Positions 26,137 to 40,334 of a stretch of 40,334 nucleotides of DNA are shown in pieces. The DNA is from a virus: positions 1-40,334 of IMG/VR virus record IMGVR_UViG_3300038548_000189. The stretch is one strand, 5' to 3'. A program made the translations under genes and the position numbers. The notes beneath the pieces were generated by a model. That model was not told where the DNA came from. It searched no databases and saw nothing but the letters and a program-made list of their open reading frames with translations. Within the stretch, counting starts at the first letter, position 1, and each line of letters opens with the position of its first letter.

Positions 26137-27153
26137 TTATACTACGCGAGCTTCGGCTTCTGTCAGTGCGTCAGTGACGCGAACAGGGTGGCCTAAGAAC
26201 GACATTGTGAAGATGGTCTTGCCGAATTGATCAAGCGCTGGCTCAATCGTTACAGCTGAATTACTTTTATCCAGGGCTGCGACTCGCAAGTTTGAAAGAA
26301 CGGTTCGGTTACAGTAGAAGCTCGTGTTAACACCCGTAAGCGTTGGCAGACGATCAATAGACCGAGACATCAGTTTAATGATTGCCGTTGCTGCTGTGGA
26401 TGCCTGGGAGCCTGTCTGTCCAACAAGGTCAGGGATATCGATGTTTGCAATACGAGCTGCAAAGCGATGATCCTTAAGCACCAACCCGGCTTTCCATGAA
26501 TAATCATCCATATAAGCGCGGAATCGATTGTTATTCGAATCAAACGCATCACCCAGACCTAAGTCTTCATGCTGCAAGCCAGCATTAGAACCTTTAGGGA
26601 ATACGCCAAAGACTGCGCGTGGTCCCCAGCCTACAAACCAGATAGAACTGTTATCTGAACCTGTACCACCCGCATCCAGAATGTTCTGGCCATTAACTGC
26701 GCCAAGATCATTATAACGATTGGAAAAACCGACAAACTCTTCAGGGTTTGCAGCCGAGCCATAAAACAGCGTTGATGCCATTTCCTGGCTCATGCCTTCC
26801 ATATGAGCGACGTTCTCATTAAAGCGGAATGAGTTGGTATTGCCGTTTAGCATGGCTTCATCCTTGTCGATCTGTGAACGAGCGGTAAGAATACCGACCC
26901 CTTCAGTGATCTGCGCAGATGTTGCTTTGCTGTTTGGCGTACCGACGTTGAGTAAACGCCAAGTCGATGTGGGCAATCCGGTTCGGATTGATGTTTGTTC
27001 GCCCGTGGGAAGGTTGCCTTCCTTCCAGAGCATTTCTCTTAGCACTTCATTACTTTGATCCAGGATCTCAATAATCTGTGCGGTGTTACCATCCGGATCG
27101 ACTTCTTTAGCCCAATCGTTCAGGGTTTTTAAAGAACCACCTATTGTAGCCAT
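26137..27153 (-). CDS. Major capsid protein (Bbp17/gp7-like)
   Basis: 338 residues. IGGSLKTLNDWAKEVDPDGNTAQIIEILDQSNEVLREMLWKEGNLPTGEQTSIRTGLPTSTWRLLN is the N-terminal pattern of the BPP-1 type capsid protein; the middle has RFNENVAHMEGMSQEMASTLFYGS and WFVGWGPRAVFGVFPKGSNAG. An HK97-like fold is expected for the family. It follows the scaffold gene and is the likely most abundant product. A hairpin covers its ribosome site (27161-27194). Confidence 0.9.
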   Translation of the reverse strand: MATIGGSLKTLNDWAKEVDPDGNTAQIIEILDQSNEVLREMLWKEGNLPTGEQTSIRTGLPTSTWRLLNVGTPNSKATSAQITEGVGILTARSQIDKDEAMLNGNTNSFRFNENVAHMEGMSQEMASTLFYGSAANPEEFVGFSNRYNDLGAVNGQNILDAGGTGSDNSSIWFVGWGPRAVFGVFPKGSNAGLQHEDLGLGDAFDSNNNRFRAYMDDYSWKAGLVLKDHRFAARIANIDIPDLVGQTGSQASTAATAIIKLMSRSIDRLPTLTGVNTSFYCNRTVLSNLRVAALDKSNSAVTIEPALDQFGKTIFTMSFLGHPVRVTDALTEAEARVV

Positions 27154-35879: not shown

Positions 35880-36101
35880 TTACCCTACAATCGCACAATG
35901 CGGCTCAATAACTTCTAGGACACCCTCGACCTGCTTTGATTCCCCGTCAGTCTCAATAAATCCCCACACTTCAGATTGACCGCTTGGCACCCCTTGTCGG
36001 CTGCGACCTTTTTCTATTAATACCCTATCGCAACGGGAATCAACTTCATAATTCCTGCACTCAAGATTCGCGCCATTCCACTCATAGACCTCAATCTTCA
36101 C
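35880..36101 (-). CDS. Hypothetical protein
   Basis: 73 residues from GTG 36101 with AAAGGAAAGG before it. Beta-like (KIEVYEWNGANLECRNYEV, SEVWGFIETDGESKQVEGVLEVIEPH). Unrecognised. Confidence 0.55.
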   Translation of the reverse strand: MKIEVYEWNGANLECRNYEVDSRCDRVLIEKGRSRQGVPSGQSEVWGFIETDGESKQVEGVLEVIEPHCAIVG

Positions 36102-36124
36102 CGCCTTTCCTTTAAGGTTCTGTC

Positions 36125-36409
36125 CTATTTAAGTATTTCTATGATTGTATCATGAAAAGACCAGCCGCCACCCGACAGCGCAGCGCTCCCAGCCAAATAT
36201 CTAAACCAGTATTCTATGATATTTTTGCGTAATTTAATCAGGTTAGCCTTTACTCTAAAGACAATTTTTCTTGATTCTGTGTTCTTGGCATAGTTGTTGG
36301 CCATAGCCTTGGCTGCTTCTTCACTGATAACCCCACGATCTACCGCGTCTTTGCCTATATCCTTGATAGCTTCAAATCCAATTTTTGTGTCATTCGGGTC
36401 ATCGTTCAT
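36125..36409 (-). CDS. Hypothetical helical protein
   Basis: 94 residues. Amphipathic, basic helices (DRGVISEEAAKAMANNYAKNTESRKIVFRVKANLIKLRKNIIEYWFRYL) and a short Ala/Gly patch (AGSAALSGGGWSF) that is too short for a sure membrane span. Unrecognised. Confidence 0.6.
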   Translation of the reverse strand: MNDDPNDTKIGFEAIKDIGKDAVDRGVISEEAAKAMANNYAKNTESRKIVFRVKANLIKLRKNIIEYWFRYLAGSAALSGGGWSFHDTIIEILK

Positions 36410-36429
36410 TATCCCGGCCTAATATAGGA

Positions 36430-36630
36430 TCACAATCTAAAGCTGGGAACCTTCCATAACTCCCCATTGAACCACCTAGCATGCCATCCACAGCCGTTTT
36501 CATCCCATGCCTCGGTAATCTCATTACCTGCCGGGATATAGTGCCTCGTCTCAGCAGGCAGCGCTTCAGGGTGAAAATCTGAGAGCTTTCTCAATGCGAA
36601 AATATCCTTTTTGTTTCTCAGCCTTATCAT
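36430..36630 (-). CDS. Hypothetical protein
   Basis: 66 residues (RNKKDIFALRKLSDFHPEALPAETRHYIPAGNEITEAWDENGCGWHARWFNGELWKVPS). The Trp-rich end suggests a small compact fold. Not recognised. Confidence 0.6.
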   Translation of the reverse strand: MIRLRNKKDIFALRKLSDFHPEALPAETRHYIPAGNEITEAWDENGCGWHARWFNGELWKVPSFRL

Positions 36631-36666
36631 GCTGTCAAGTATAGATGATTAGCGGGCTGTATGGAA

Positions 36667-37254
36667 TTAAGCCAATTTCTGCTCCAGGGCGTAGGCATGG
36701 CGGAATAGGCCGATCATTATTGAAGGGTTAGATTGCTCCCTGCCCTGCCTCCTTATTTCTTCTGTTTTTGCTTTGATGTAGGCGGCCTCTGCGATCTCTG
36801 GACTAAGGAAAGACCCTAGTCTTTTTTGCCTCTTGTTAATACATATTTGAGCTATATAGGTTCTGTTTTTCTTATCCAGATGAACTCCAGTTGGAAAATC
36901 CCCTTTATTCAACTGATTTTGCGTTAAAATACTATTCGACCTATGATCAACAAAGAGGCAGGTTGATGGCGAATACTCTTTATTTCCCGGAATTAATATA
37001 TCTTTATCTAGCTCCCTGCCTTCCCAGTCCTGACAAACCATCCACAACCTGAAATTACTAAACAAAAGCCACTCGCTACAAACCGAGCCCCCCTTATATG
37101 AAGGGAACTTATCTAAAAATTTAGCACTATAGACCCTTTCCAGCATTCCTCCCCAGACAACGTAAAAAGGGCAAATGATGCGCATACCATTTTCTATCCG
37201 ATTAACCCGATAAGGGGCATCATTAATACCAGACCCATAAACAATTCCTTTCAC
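36667..37254 (-). CDS. AP2-type homing-like protein 3
   Basis: 195 residues from GTG 37254 with AAGGAG upstream. The first 110 residues carry WGGMLERVYS, YKGGSVCSEWLLFSNFRLWM and GRELDKDILIPGNKEYSPSTCLFV, a phage HNH-like family. Residues 121-165 (GVHLDKKNRTYIAQICINKRQKRLGSFLSPEIAEAAYIKA) form an AP2-type DNA-binding domain like those of the other two homing-type genes. Unlike them it lies in line with its operon and has no leader RNA element. Confidence 0.78.
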   Translation of the reverse strand: MKGIVYGSGINDAPYRVNRIENGMRIICPFYVVWGGMLERVYSAKFLDKFPSYKGGSVCSEWLLFSNFRLWMVCQDWEGRELDKDILIPGNKEYSPSTCLFVDHRSNSILTQNQLNKGDFPTGVHLDKKNRTYIAQICINKRQKRLGSFLSPEIAEAAYIKAKTEEIRRQGREQSNPSIMIGLFRHAYALEQKLA

Positions 37255-37280
37255 CCTCTTACTCCTTAGTGGTTAGGGGG

Positions 37281-37478
37281 TTATTTATCGCCCGTGTACA
37301 GTAATAAATAATCGCAGTGGTACAGGCCCGTTCTCTCGTTTTGATAAAGAGGCGACGTCGGCAGTATTTGAATAACCAATCGATTAGGTATGTTGCCCTT
37401 AATAAAATCATCTAACTGCTCCCCGGTGTAGTCAAGCAGCACAGCTGTTGTTGTTCTCATAACTCTATCCGTTGTCAT
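37281..37478 (-). CDS. Hypothetical protein
   Basis: 65 residues (TTTAVLLDYTGEQLDDFIKGNIPNRLVIQILPTSPLYQNERTGLYHCDYLLLYTG). Start is unsure: ATG 37478 has no clear ribosome site, while ATG 37460 has GGAT seven bases upstream. Unrecognised. Confidence 0.55.
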   Translation of the reverse strand: MTTDRVMRTTTAVLLDYTGEQLDDFIKGNIPNRLVIQILPTSPLYQNERTGLYHCDYLLLYTGDK

Positions 37479-37495
37479 TAGTGTTTGTTAGGGGG

Positions 37496-37666
37496 TTAAC
37501 CTTCAAGCTTCTCTCTCAATTCATCAAATTGAACCTGCAGACCAACCTCTTTCTCATAGTTTAATGTGTGGTAAAATGTGGCATCAAGCCCTTCGGAGAC
37601 CGGGCCTTTAGGAAGAAGATTCAGGATAATTCGAATCTCGCTATCTTCTAAAAATAGCTCTTTCAT
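37496..37666 (-). CDS. 56-residue hypothetical protein
   Basis: ATG 37666 overlaps the upstream stop as ATGA. Acidic and helical (KELFLEDSEIRIILNLLPKG, YEKEVGLQVQFDELREKLEG). No motif. Supported by coupling and a continuous frame. Confidence 0.6.
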   Translation of the reverse strand: MKELFLEDSEIRIILNLLPKGPVSEGLDATFYHTLNYEKEVGLQVQFDELREKLEG

Positions 37667-37842
37667 AATTCCATTGTCTCCAGCAAGTAAGCAACTTCGC
37701 TCTTTTCGCCTTGTAACTGCTCGACGCAGAATCTAAGGACGTCGCTAATAGAGTGATCCTCAGTGATTACATATTCATCAGCAGCCGGAATATAAGGCTC
37801 ACTTTCGGGTAATGACTTTAATTTTCTAATAATTTCTGCCAT
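37663..37842 (-). CDS. 59-residue hypothetical protein
   Basis: AGGAGA lies eight bases before ATG 37842. AEIIRKLKSLPESEPYIPAADEYVITEDHSISDVLRFCVEQLQGEKSEVAYLLETM: a likely helix pair with a polar middle. Unrecognised; coupled to the next gene by ATGA. Confidence 0.62.
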   Translation of the reverse strand: MAEIIRKLKSLPESEPYIPAADEYVITEDHSISDVLRFCVEQLQGEKSEVAYLLETMEL

Positions 37843-37879
37843 CCTATTTCTCCTGGTTATGCTTCTTTATGGGGAGTGG

Positions 37880-38143
37880 TTAGGCTCCGAAGTGCGCCTT
37901 TAGTATCTTGGTGTCAATATCGCCGCGAGACTCCAGCCCTAATGTTTCGCTTTTGCCGTGACACTCCAGGTTATGACTTACAAATCCGGCAGATATAGGC
38001 ATTCTAAATTCCCGAGTCCAGTTACCGTGGGTTTGGTCTTTGATTCGAGACAACACCTCCTTCATGCAGTTATGGTTTACCCAGTCAGGGAATAAGAAAA
38101 TCTCCTCCATTTCAGCTTCATTCTTCATGCAAATATATTTCAT
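37880..38143 (-). CDS. Hypothetical protein
   Basis: 87 residues (KYICMKNEAEMEEIFLFPDWVNHNCMKEVLSRIKDQ, FRMPISAGFVSHNLECHGKSETLGL). The GFVS...CxGxSETL pattern recurs in short phage proteins, as far as I recall, without a known role. Confidence 0.6.
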   Translation of the reverse strand: MKYICMKNEAEMEEIFLFPDWVNHNCMKEVLSRIKDQTHGNWTREFRMPISAGFVSHNLECHGKSETLGLESRGDIDTKILKAHFGA

Positions 38144-38153
38144 TCTCGCCTCT

Positions 38154-38342
38154 CTAGTTAATTACCCGAGCATCAAACTCCTGGATGCGTAGGGCTATAT
38201 AATTGCTAATCTCTTTCCAGTCTGAGCCGTCATAATCGCATTCGTGTCGATCCAGAGCTTTGTCAACTAGTTCGATATGTGCTTTTAGTTCTGGCTTGCA
38301 CTCGGCATCGTGGATACCGGTCATTATTTCGTCTTTGGTCAT
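38154..38342 (-). CDS. Hypothetical protein
   Basis: 62 residues, acidic and helical (TKDEIMTGIHDAECKPELKAHIELVDKALDRHECDYDGSDWKEI). ATGA overlap with the upstream gene. Unrecognised. Confidence 0.6.
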   Translation of the reverse strand: MTKDEIMTGIHDAECKPELKAHIELVDKALDRHECDYDGSDWKEISNYIALRIQEFDARVIN

Positions 38343-38701
38343 AAATCCTCCTTTTCTGCCTTCATTCGCGCATTTGCCCTATCCATCAGCCGATCCCATT
38401 CAAACGGAGATAAATCCTCCTTTAGGATATCGAGAAGATATCTCACCACTCCCGGCGATCTTTTCTTTGGCCTGAATGCGATTATCTGCTGCTGTATCTC
38501 AAACTGTTTAATGCCTAGAGCCTTTCTTTCTGGCGAGCCTTTCTTGCTAGCAAAAATCTCTTTATGAATACTCTTTATCCTAGCGACTAGGTTTTCTCTT
38601 TTCTGTTCATCAGTTAGCGTGTCATCGGTCGAACAACCGGACTGACCTGTTACTAATGCAGCCGTTTTGTTGACCGGCTTTAGTCCGTAGACGTCGATCA
38701 T
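38339..38701 (-). CDS. Hypothetical protein downstream of the helicase loader
   Basis: 120 residues. Basic helical middle (RENLVARIKSIHKEIFASKKGSPERKALGIKQFEIQQQIIAF) and C-terminus DILKEDLSPFEWDRLMDRANARMKAEKE. It overlaps the loader gene as ATGA and may belong to replication or late control. No antiterminator motif seen. Confidence 0.65.
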   Translation of the reverse strand: MIDVYGLKPVNKTAALVTGQSGCSTDDTLTDEQKRENLVARIKSIHKEIFASKKGSPERKALGIKQFEIQQQIIAFRPKKRSPGVVRYLLDILKEDLSPFEWDRLMDRANARMKAEKEDL

Positions 38702-39180
38702 AAGTCCTCCAGAATACCCTTTAGAGCGTCTTTGCCAGTTTGTGTACGTTTGGATACATGTTCAATGAGTTTTGACTGTGGTCGCACGTATTCGGCGCTT
38801 AACGGGTCGTTTCGAGGGTGCTTAGGCGAGTCAAAGCTCAAATACGCTGCCGAATTGCCTCCATTGGGGCTAATTGTCTCCGGTAAGCACAGCTGCCGAA
38901 ACTGCAAAACCGTTGGCGGGAATGCACTATCCCAGGAAAGAAGTTTGTCAAATCCGCTATTAACTTGTTCTTGTGAAAGTTCCGTCAATAGTTTCCCCCA
39001 TATGTCCGTCGGCTCCTCCCCCTCCCGGCTGGTCCATGCGTGGTGGAATAGTTTGGTCATCATCACCCATAGATTCCACATTGCGTCTTCGTTGAGCGGC
39101 TTCGTCTCGTTTGGCTTCGACTCTTTGAGTTGGCGTGAGTCGATTTGCTGCTGGATTTCCTCCAGATTGATTTTGTCCAT
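38698..39180 (-). CDS. Lambda P-like replication protein (helicase loader)
   Basis: 160 residues from ATG 39180, supported by AAGGGG seven bases upstream; the frame runs back to 39258 without a site. NEDAMWNLWVMMTKLFHHAWTSREGEEPTDIWGKLLTELSQEQVNSGFDKLL and SAFPPTVLQFRQLCLPE are the Replication protein P core; that family takes host DnaB helicase to the origin. Its first 74 codons (38960-39180) overlap the end of the O-like gene in another frame, an unusually long overlap. Confidence 0.82.
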   Translation of the reverse strand: MDKINLEEIQQQIDSRQLKESKPNETKPLNEDAMWNLWVMMTKLFHHAWTSREGEEPTDIWGKLLTELSQEQVNSGFDKLLSWDSAFPPTVLQFRQLCLPETISPNGGNSAAYLSFDSPKHPRNDPLSAEYVRPQSKLIEHVSKRTQTGKDALKGILEDL

Positions 39181-39736
39181 TGGTATTCCCCTTTGGCTCG
39201 AATAGCCCTTGATAATCATTTTGAATTGATTGGTCGATAATCTGTTGTTGAACGTCAAAAGCGTAATTAGATAATAATTTAAATTGTTTCTTAGCTGCGG
39301 CTGGACTCACGGTTTTCTTTTTTGATTTCCGATATTCAATCCATTCAATCCAGGCCGGTTGATTAATACCGTCAGGTATTACAAGTCTTTTACTATCACT
39401 ATCATTCTTACTATCACTCTTACTCTTACTAACACTATCGGCTTTTTTGGGTTTTACTGGGTTCCCAGATATCCCAGTGGGTTCTTCTGGGTTCTTTGGC
39501 CTTCCACCCTTTAAGCCATTGTTTCTATTACGGTCTACGATGTTTTGATACTTTATTTCGTCACGGGCAAATTGATTCTTGAAGGGGGAAAAGGCTATTT
39601 TAACAATGGGGGATAGCTCGAGGTCTTCGCCTAACTGGTAGGATTTGATAGCCTGGAATAGTTCGCCGCACTGCTCGAGAGTGAGGTCTTCCAAGACTGC
39701 CAGACTATCATTGTGGACTATAAAAGATTTACGCAT
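38960..39736 (-). CDS. Lambda O-like replication initiator (DUF6291 N-terminus)
   Basis: 258 residues. KSFIVHNDSLAVLEDLTLEQCGELFQAIKSYQLGED (3-38) and IAFSPFKNQFARDEIKYQNIVDRNRNNGLKGGRPKN (47-82) are the DUF6291 domain of phage replication proteins. A Ser/Lys/Asp linker (SVSKSKSDSKNDSDSK, 100-115) is encoded by three 18-bp direct repeats, the likely origin. Then PAWIEWIEYRKSKKKTVSPAAAKKQFKLL, as in O-type C-terminal parts. Preceded by the XRE gene and the candidate antisense RNA, followed by the P-like gene: lambda's order. Confidence 0.78.
   Translation of the reverse strand: MRKSFIVHNDSLAVLEDLTLEQCGELFQAIKSYQLGEDLELSPIVKIAFSPFKNQFARDEIKYQNIVDRNRNNGLKGGRPKNPEEPTGISGNPVKPKKADSVSKSKSDSKNDSDSKRLVIPDGINQPAWIEWIEYRKSKKKTVSPAAAKKQFKLLSNYAFDVQQQIIDQSIQNDYQGLFEPKGNTNGQNQSGGNPAANRLTPTQRVEAKRDEAAQRRRNVESMGDDDQTIPPRMDQPGGGGADGHMGETIDGTFTRTS
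39390..39443. other. Candidate replication origin: three 18-bp iterons
   Basis: TTACTATCACT at 39390 and 39408 and TTACTAACACT at 39426 repeat with exact 18-bp spacing in the middle of the O-like gene. Lambda's origin likewise has 18-19 bp iterons inside O. An AT-rich tract (39264-39292, TAATTAGATAATAATTTAAA) lies on the P side, where lambda has its melting region. The repeats also code a low-complexity linker, so selection on protein alone is possible. Confidence 0.6.
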
Positions 39737-39820
39737 TATAATTGATCTACTATGTGAATAGTGTTCCGGTGTCCCAAGTTGAGCCGCTTATCTCCTCTAA
39801 GATGTTAAGCGGCTTTTTCT
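39714..39820 (+). ncRNA. Candidate OOP-like antisense RNA with its promoter and terminator
   Basis: Promoter: TGGACT (39714-39719), 17 bases, perfect TATAAT (39737-39742). Terminator: AGCCGCTTA (39782-39790) pairs with TAAGCGGCT (39806-39814), followed by TTTTCTT. The RNA would run from about 39749 to 39820, some 70 bases, antisense to the start of the O-like leader and to the 3' end of the XRE gene, whose stop (39805-39807) lies at the stem. Lambda OOP has the same size, direction and place between cII and O. Confidence 0.65.
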
Positions 39821-40017
39821 TCCCCTAAAGCTATAAATTCACTGACCGAATAACCAAAAGCATCAGCGAACCTTTTCACTGTAGCCATATTTAGCCGAGT
39901 ACCTCTTGACGCCCAGTAGGATACATTGGACTGAGCAACACCCATCTCATCTGCTAGCCTTGTTTGAGTCCAGCCCTGATAGGCCAGCCCAATCTTTACG
40001 GATCGCTCTATATTCAT
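39805..40017 (-). CDS. XRE-family regulator (Cro/CII-like position)
   Basis: 70 residues, one helix-turn-helix domain: RSVKIGLAYQGWTQTRLADEMGVAQSNVSYWASRGTRLNMATVKRFADAFGYSVSEFI. TQTRLADEMG is helix 2 and SNVSYWASR helix 3. No dimerisation or self-cleaving peptidase domain, so it is more like Cro or a small CII-type activator than CI. First gene of the long leftward unit and divergent from the split acidic gene; probably binds the palindrome at 40040-40058. Confidence 0.85.
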   Translation of the reverse strand: MNIERSVKIGLAYQGWTQTRLADEMGVAQSNVSYWASRGTRLNMATVKRFADAFGYSVSEFIALGEEKAA

Positions 40018-40038
40018 AATCAGCTATTTCTCGTTTAA

Positions 40039-40086
40039 TTATCAGTTCAGTGCTGATACAATATACTCTGATTTGTATTTAGTCAA
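40039..40086. promoter_or_regulatory. Divergent promoters and operator between XRE gene and acidic gene
   Basis: Rightward: TTATCA (40039-40044), 17 bases, TATACT (40062-40067). Leftward: TTGACT (40086-40081) with TATATT (40065-40060) at 15 bases or TATTGT (40063-40058) at 17. TATCAG (40040-40045) and CTGATA (40053-40058) form a perfect inverted repeat that overlaps the rightward -35 and lies just past the leftward -10, a sound site for the XRE protein. Confidence 0.6.
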
Positions 40087-40102
40087 CATAAGGAACAATA
40101 TT

Positions 40103-40334
40103 GTGGAAATGATAAGCATCAATGAGATTAAAGATTTGGCAAGCAAAGAATTAGTAGCCGCCCTACCAGCCAAGGAAGAGGGTGTGATTTTCGAAGTTGT
40201 ATCTGGTGAGTCACTTATTGGTGAGCCTACAGAAGATGAGCCCTTTGCGTCGATTGAGTACGATATTCTTTTTGAGTTCGGAAACTGTAAAAAGAAACAT
40301 GCAATGGTTATAGGTTGGAATGAAGACGATGGCG
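40103..40334 (+). CDS. Small acidic protein, 5' part of gene split by the window ends
   Basis: Starts at GTG 40103, with AAGGA eight bases upstream; ATG 40109 is the alternative. Reads VEMISINEIKDLASKELVAALPAKEEG onward and continues at position 1 after the shared 127 bases, to give 115 residues. First and only gene of its rightward unit before the structured RNA. No family recognised. Confidence 0.85.
   Translation, partial: MEMISINEIKDLASKELVAALPAKEEGVIFEVVSGESLIGEPTEDEPFASIEYDILFEFGNCKKKHAMVIGWNEDDG
40208..40334. repeat. Terminal direct repeat, copy 2 (assembly overlap)
   Basis: Same 127 bases as 1-127; see that entry. Removing one copy gives a 40,207-bp circle. Confidence 0.9.

Follow-up and report, generated by a model that had tools for sequence, protein, structure and literature searches.

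What is the role of a short antisense transcription unit that faces the junction between a small regulator gene and a replication initiator gene in a phage otherwise unlike lambda? The question is raised by the window, i.e. the whole stretch of 40,334 bases analysed here. A direct terminal repeat of 127 bases stands at the two ends of this virus record (1-127 is identical to 40208-40334), so that it probably represents a whole phage genome that closes into a circle. The features around the junction are as follows.

38698-39258, minus strand: P-like helicase loader, the next gene of the operon (phrog_109, E 1e-07)
38960-39736, minus strand: O-like replication initiator, with a DUF6291 N-terminal domain and an O-like (phrog_678) C-terminal part
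39390-39439, no strand assigned: 18-base repeat in 2.8 copies within the O gene, candidate origin iterons
39714-39742, plus strand: pO-like promoter, -35 box TGGACT (39714-39719), 17-base spacer, -10 box TATAAT (39737-39742)
39749 to 39818-39821, plus strand: predicted antisense RNA of 69-72 nt, both ends predicted
39781-39818, plus strand: intrinsic terminator, stem 39781-39790 / 39806-39815, T-run 39814-39818
39805-39807, minus strand: stop codon TAA of the XRE gene, inside the terminator stem
39805-40017, minus strand: XRE (HTH_3) regulator of 70 amino acids, first gene of the operon, in a Cro-like position
40040-40058, no strand assigned: palindrome TATCAG-N7-CTGATA, flanked by divergent promoter-like sites (40039-40086)

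The original prediction described a promoter and a terminator that frame an RNA of about 70 bases opposite the XRE-O junction, and both elements were located as described. The -35 box falls within the coding sequence of the O-like gene, where it is written by the Ile-Val-His codons 6-8, while the -10 box abuts the start codon of this gene, which starts at 39736. The terminator stem has ten pairs, GAGCCGCTTA (39781-39790) with TAAGCGGCTT (39806-39815), closed by a 15-nt loop. It was therefore missed by a simple terminator scan, which allowed loops of at most 8 nt. With its start placed, as we infer, 7 nt past the -10 box, the predicted RNA would consist of a 31-nt 5' part, the 10-bp terminator hairpin and a U-run. 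A 75-nt RNA from this position folds at -19.1 kcal/mol compared with -11.85 for shuffled sequences (z -3.0), and one of 200 shuffles is as good. As also predicted, the 3' stem overlaps the XRE stop codon, the 3' arm covering 39806-39815 and the TAA 39805-39807. Altogether the RNA is complementary to the XRE gene over about 14 nt only, and some 12 bases separate its predicted 5' end from the O start codon.

The promoter match by itself is no proof of a promoter, because ten promoter-like sites are found in the AT-rich stretch 36000-40334, of which this is the best, and 8.5 are expected by chance. Rfam has no match in the window, nor at lambda's own oop, and so it cannot decide the matter.

The case that the pair is not due to chance rests on relatives of the initiator. 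DUF6291 initiators were gathered from named phages, from IMG/VR (the best 80 of 204 loci) and from bacterial genomes, which gave five loci, all on MAG contigs. Of the named phage records, 21 were found, 13 taken and 12 scored; L015 ends at the record edge. L052 and L069 were too short and are unscored, L003 and L026 are the same contig, and several loci are near-copies. A promoter and a terminator, hereafter the cassette, are paired in antisense orientation at 28 of the 96 scored junctions, and the cassette is present in nine of the twelve scored named phage records. The reported promoter spacer is 17 bases in all 28 positive loci (L017 fits 18 equally), and the distance from the -10 box to the initiator start is 0, 1, 2 or 4 bases. 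In comparison, dinucleotide shuffles of the positive junctions contain a pair in 6 of 1120 cases, and off the junction the antisense strand of the same loci has 55 pairs over 492,585 bases, or some 0.025 for a stretch the size of a junction. Thus the pair at the initiator junction is not a product of chance.

The detector overlooked L026 and L091, owing to its energy and loop limits, and these were added by eye. So was L083, in which the terminator is present and the -10 box is weak. The cassette set therefore consists of 31 loci. The form found in the window, TGGACT-17-TATAAT, is also present in L026 (L003) and L045. As many loci are related, the 28 positives are not 28 independent events. 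On the DUF6291 domain tree, which is poorly resolved, the presence of the cassette requires at least 15 gains or losses, seven of them forced by well supported branches. The distribution among DUF6291 initiators is patchy. The conservation test suggested along with the original prediction gave a divided answer, since promoter and terminator are kept in many relatives but the cassette is absent in L025 and L027, the nearest relatives of the window on the domain tree. The cassette is a recurrent phage element and the window's site is one instance of it.

The geometry of the site is that of lambda. The lambda promoter has a -10 box, CATAAT, that overlaps the start codon of O, and a -35 box, TTGAGT, at a distance of 17 bases within O; the T-run of oop is found 81-86 nt above the O start and the end of cII 33 nt above O. 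In both phages the -10 box is placed at the initiator start and the -35 box in the first codons, and a short RNA (in the window a predicted one) ending at an intrinsic terminator is antisense to the place where a small regulator gene meets an initiator gene. Judged by position and geometry, the window site corresponds to the pO/oop site of lambda, and the claim that it shares the place and direction of OOP is borne out. Equally correct was the remark that the phage is otherwise unlike lambda, as it has an SU10-type portal and its O-like protein has a DUF6291 N-terminus. Lambda uses the initiator O, while the cassette loci have DUF6291 or other initiator domains. The literature gives lengths of 77 nt for lambda OOP (PMC12197685) and 63 nt for oop of P22 (PMC13397905), and mentions OOP-BTP1 of phage BTP1 as detected by RNA-seq (PMC7067206). 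The cassette RNAs are mostly predicted to be about 40 nt, compared to the 77 nt of lambda.

A second likeness is to plasmids. In pMV158 the RNAII gene sits between copG and repB, and analogous circuits are CopB/CopA/RepA of R1 and CopR/RNAIII/RepR of pIP501. As in pMV158, the operon of the cassette loci places the predicted antisense RNA between a regulator and the initiator, and a small co-oriented DNA-binding regulator just upstream of the initiator is the plasmid-type feature found here as well. In one locus (L020) the upstream regulator even matches the CopG-type ribbon-helix-helix family, PF01402 (E 2.7e-07). RNAII is described as having a tail of 17 nt, a stem of 8 bp, a loop of 6 nt and a U-rich end of 8 nt (PMC4485353). 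The predicted cassette RNAs are alike, i.e. a single hairpin with a single-stranded 5' tail and a U-rich end, with medians of 14 nt for the tail, 7 bp for the stem, 7 nt for the loop, U6 and 40.5 nt in total. This tail-hairpin-U-run shape is predicted in 31 loci with a narrow distribution, and the window's RNA (69 nt) exceeds the median length. Alongside the repressor CopG, RNAII inhibits translation of the initiator gene repB, according to PMC4485353; for the cassette RNA such inhibition is our proposal, made by analogy. The systems also differ, as pMV158 is a plasmid with a rolling-circle RepB and the cassettes belong to phages with O/DnaD-like initiators.

We propose that the cassette is an antisense brake on the replication initiator, acting through RNA pairing together with convergent transcription, and we hold this to be probable, with moderate confidence. 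RNA polymerase would begin at a promoter that lies partly inside the first codons of the initiator, move away from it, cross the gap to the upstream regulator and end at a terminator placed on the stop codon of that gene. The resulting short RNA would be complementary to the spacer just 5' of the initiator translation start on the regulator-initiator mRNA. Pairing could then make it harder for ribosomes to load onto the initiator mRNA or trigger cleavage of this mRNA, and head-on RNA polymerases could reduce the transcription that reaches the initiator and the origin. In net effect, replication initiation would be held back in a dosage-dependent way, as by RNAII of pMV158, which is joined by a small DNA-binding repressor encoded upstream; among phages, lambda pO comes nearest to this. 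Position, direction, promoter spacing, terminator, recurrence and the predicted size and shape of the RNA are read directly from the sequences. From these we infer RNA synthesis and its exact ends, the pairing with mRNA and the consequences for the amount of initiator and for replication. The initiator and origin are taken as the controlled target because the geometry recurs without a recognisable lysogeny module and beside a dozen unrelated upstream genes. The step of translation control is borrowed from the plasmids, since oop is reported to leave the stability of the lambda O-P mRNA unchanged (PMC3985674). The cassette would thus work like pMV158 RNAII and lambda pO, a likeness that carries no claim of common descent.

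The alternative that survives best is that only the promoter counts. Transcription against the early operon would act by interference or through DNA topology near the origin, and the RNA would be a by-product kept short by the terminator. According to PMC3985674, lambda pO reduces pR transcription, loss of pO impairs replication and oop RNA is seemingly dispensable for it. Further, the sequence of the RNA body varies among the loci while promoter and terminator are kept, and some 300 bases into O there are iteron-like repeats. These candidate iterons, located in a Ser/Asp-rich linker of the O-like gene, resemble the arrangement in lambda O, and the DNA around 39390-39439 matches several other phages. 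However, the narrow RNA length and the tail-stem-U shape are not needed for interference, and an antisense RNA acting in cis likewise needs no conservation of its sequence. We consider this explanation unlikely. The varying RNA body also disfavours a small RNA that acts in trans on a fixed target.

Silencing in the manner of lambda, with the regulator as the target and its XRE mRNA degraded once the RNA has paired with the 3' end, appears improbable. In its favour are the place and direction shared with OOP, the RNase III mechanism by which OOP reduces cII expression (PMC5869508 and PMC12197685), and the XRE stop codon, which the duplex would take in. However, the overlap is about 14 nt in the window and mostly just the stop codon in the relatives, compared with about 54 nt between OOP and cII. 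In 25 of the 31 cassette loci the stop codon of the upstream gene is inside or touching the T-run. As the RNA barely reaches the upstream gene, silencing of the XRE mRNA is unlikely to be the main job.

The identity of the upstream gene also speaks against silencing. The neighbour of OOP is cII, while the upstream genes of the 31 cassette loci, of the XRE kind or one of a dozen others, form 13 unrelated clusters (no similarity at E 1e-4). Among ten sampled upstream genes, Pfam supports types with XRE/HTH_37, Phd/YefM and CopG-type ribbon-helix-helix domains, and for five of the ten the match is absent or doubtful. The cassette is therefore not tied to an XRE or cII-like gene. The original prediction had the device kept or re-evolved with an XRE/cII-type module, a view that finds no support, given the 13 clusters, the several initiator families described below and the slight overlap. 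Control by LexA is another difference. The OOP promoter of lambda is LexA-controlled, but a CTG-N10-CAG site is found near the promoter in none of the 31 cassette loci; two of the 31 have one 85-120 nt away. Because the overlap is about 14 instead of about 54 nt, the upstream gene is not cII-like and a LexA-type site is missing, the features that define OOP as a cII regulator do not appear in the window.

Nor is there a trace of a lysogeny decision. Models of tyrosine integrases, serine recombinases and S24-type repressors each matched in 0 of 24 records, while the built-in controls responded; some of these records are fragments, and prophages that transpose or persist as plasmids lay outside the search. 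As integrase and S24 repressor are absent from these records, in contrast to lambda, a role of the cassette in the lysis-lysogeny choice is unlikely. The phages are apparently non-lysogenic, which is evidence and not proof of a lytic life.

Both ends of the cassette carry signs of selection, and these bear on two weaker explanations. The Lys-Ser of the KSF motif is coded AAG TCA in 20 of 28 cassette loci and in 5 of 34 loci without the cassette, a count that omits 26 loci without KSF as well as identical codon stretches. Three loci (the window, L026 and L045) have the start codon nearer to the -10 box and build the -35 box from other codons, still at a spacing of 17 bases. These patterns are signs of selection on a -35 box within the initiator coding sequence. 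We also considered TATAAT as mere context of the start codon and rejected it, as the distance to the start varies (0, 1, 2 or 4 bases) and the spacer to the -35 box is constant at 17.

It is very unlikely that the terminator acts as an insulator, which keeps stray antisense transcription out of the regulator gene, next to a promoter that arose by coincidence from an AT-rich spacer and start-codon context. TATAAT does lie in the usually AT-rich interval between ribosome site and start codon, the promoter scores are near those of chance, and L083 retains the terminator with a weak -10 box. However, the 17-base spacer in 28 of 28 loci, the codon bias at the -35 box and its two different codon solutions argue against a coincidence.

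The terminators are constant in form and not in sequence. Among 30 RNAs there are 22 distinct 5' arms, and the arms pair with their own partner in 23 of 23 cases, compared with a mean of 2.8 after the arms are re-dealt, although the stems had been picked for pairing and the fair control is given by the shuffle and background counts (6/1120; 55/492,585). All 31 loci have the T-run on the antisense side, and an A-run usable in the sense direction is present in one of them. The remaining explanation, a short conserved joint that serves to swap regulators and initiators between phages and has no regulatory role, agrees with the exchange of both flanking genes around a constant joint and with the near constancy of TATAATTACCT in many loci, but it is hardly credible, as the stem varies in sequence while its pairing and the T-run are kept, and therefore offers little homology for recombination.

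The cassette is not confined to DUF6291 initiators. A pattern scan of IMG/VR for TATAATTACCT followed by GGCTTTTTTA at 20-45 bases gave 23 loci, four of them at DUF6291 initiators and six directly at other initiators, which are listed here.

L111 and L124: cassette at a DUF1376 initiator
L114: cassette at an HTH_36 initiator (phrog_391)
L117: cassette at a phrog_16167 initiator, a PHROG-only type
L127: cassette at a Lin1244_N initiator
L130: cassette at a phrog_345 initiator, a PHROG-only type

In L118 and L125 the match lies one small gene ahead of the initiator, and six of the 23 loci resemble chance matches. The pattern was also seen in early operons with no recognised initiator adjoining (L109, L112, L113, L115 and L123). 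Among close relatives of the DUF1376 initiator, the cassette is present in five of six loci, with TTGAAT or TTGAAC as -35 box and a spacer of 17 or 18. In the HTH_36 type it is found at the start in only one of 67 distinct loci, the seed contig itself. L152, which matches only in its C-terminal part, was omitted from this survey of initiator families. A device common to every initiator family was considered, and this idea failed for the HTH_36 type. In ten O loci of this type (L166, L176, L182, L192, L195, L196, L201, L203, L211 and L222) an antisense terminator lies about 120 bases upstream of the initiator, mostly with GTCGCCAAA in the loop, and no matching promoter was found at the initiator start of these ten. 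Such terminators may perhaps end a longer antisense RNA.

Most accounts of OOP present it as a regulator of cII in the lysis-lysogeny decision. Tentatively, and with less confidence than in the brake itself, it can be speculated that a plasmid-like copy-number circuit is common among marine phages that appear to be non-lysogenic, built from a constant antisense cassette with exchangeable repressors and initiator domains. Lambda OOP would then be a specialised case of this circuit and not an invention of lysogeny. If this is true, replication control in phages and plasmids shares one architecture. The recurring geometry also offers a way to test if the replication role of lambda pO came first, and it provides a sequence rule for spotting such RNAs in unannotated phage genomes. 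In the PMC literature, which leaves subscription journals mostly out of scope, we found no paper that uses 'OOP-like' together with phage, and none that combines antisense RNA, replication initiation, Vibrio phage and terminator.

Several smaller observations concern the early operon of the window. The XRE protein matches HTH_3 and general repressor PHROGs; as a search seed it gave one weak locus only and was dropped. The palindrome TATCAG-N7-CTGATA is a likely operator of this protein, and on its other side a gene of 113-115 amino acids with no assigned function runs from 40103 across the genome end. The start codon of the P-like loader is uncertain, as the listed TTG overlaps the O gene. The DUF6291 domain is predicted to fold into three helices (mean pLDDT 75.9), and this predicted fold has no match in the PDB at E 0.001 or better.

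Past its stop, the XRE frame continues uninterrupted as far as a TAA sharing bases with the start codon of O (TAATG; window 39737-39804), and a short TTG-started frame there could couple translation, a frame that is not conserved in L045. All three cassettes of the TGGACT type, i.e. those of the window (loop 39791-39805), L026 and L045, have CTCC in the antisense hairpin loop. On the mRNA strand the loop shows a ribosome-site-like motif in these three, GAGGAG or GGGGAG, and there is no clear ribosome site at the O start codon. It is possible that a loop-loop contact prevents translation of the initiator.

Finally, promoter-terminator pairs were counted over eight genomes, the window and seven named records, four of the latter over their first 40 kb only. 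The initiator junction accounts for 8 of the 35 pairs and is the sole recurrent place. Of the strong pairs (spacer 17, score at least 10, at least six T), six are at the initiator junction compared with two elsewhere. One record, MG592450.1 (L233), contains a second cassette at about 26431-26560 (TATAATTTACCTC, a hairpin and T7) before NVP1074O_42, in the same early operon as the cassette before the initiator.
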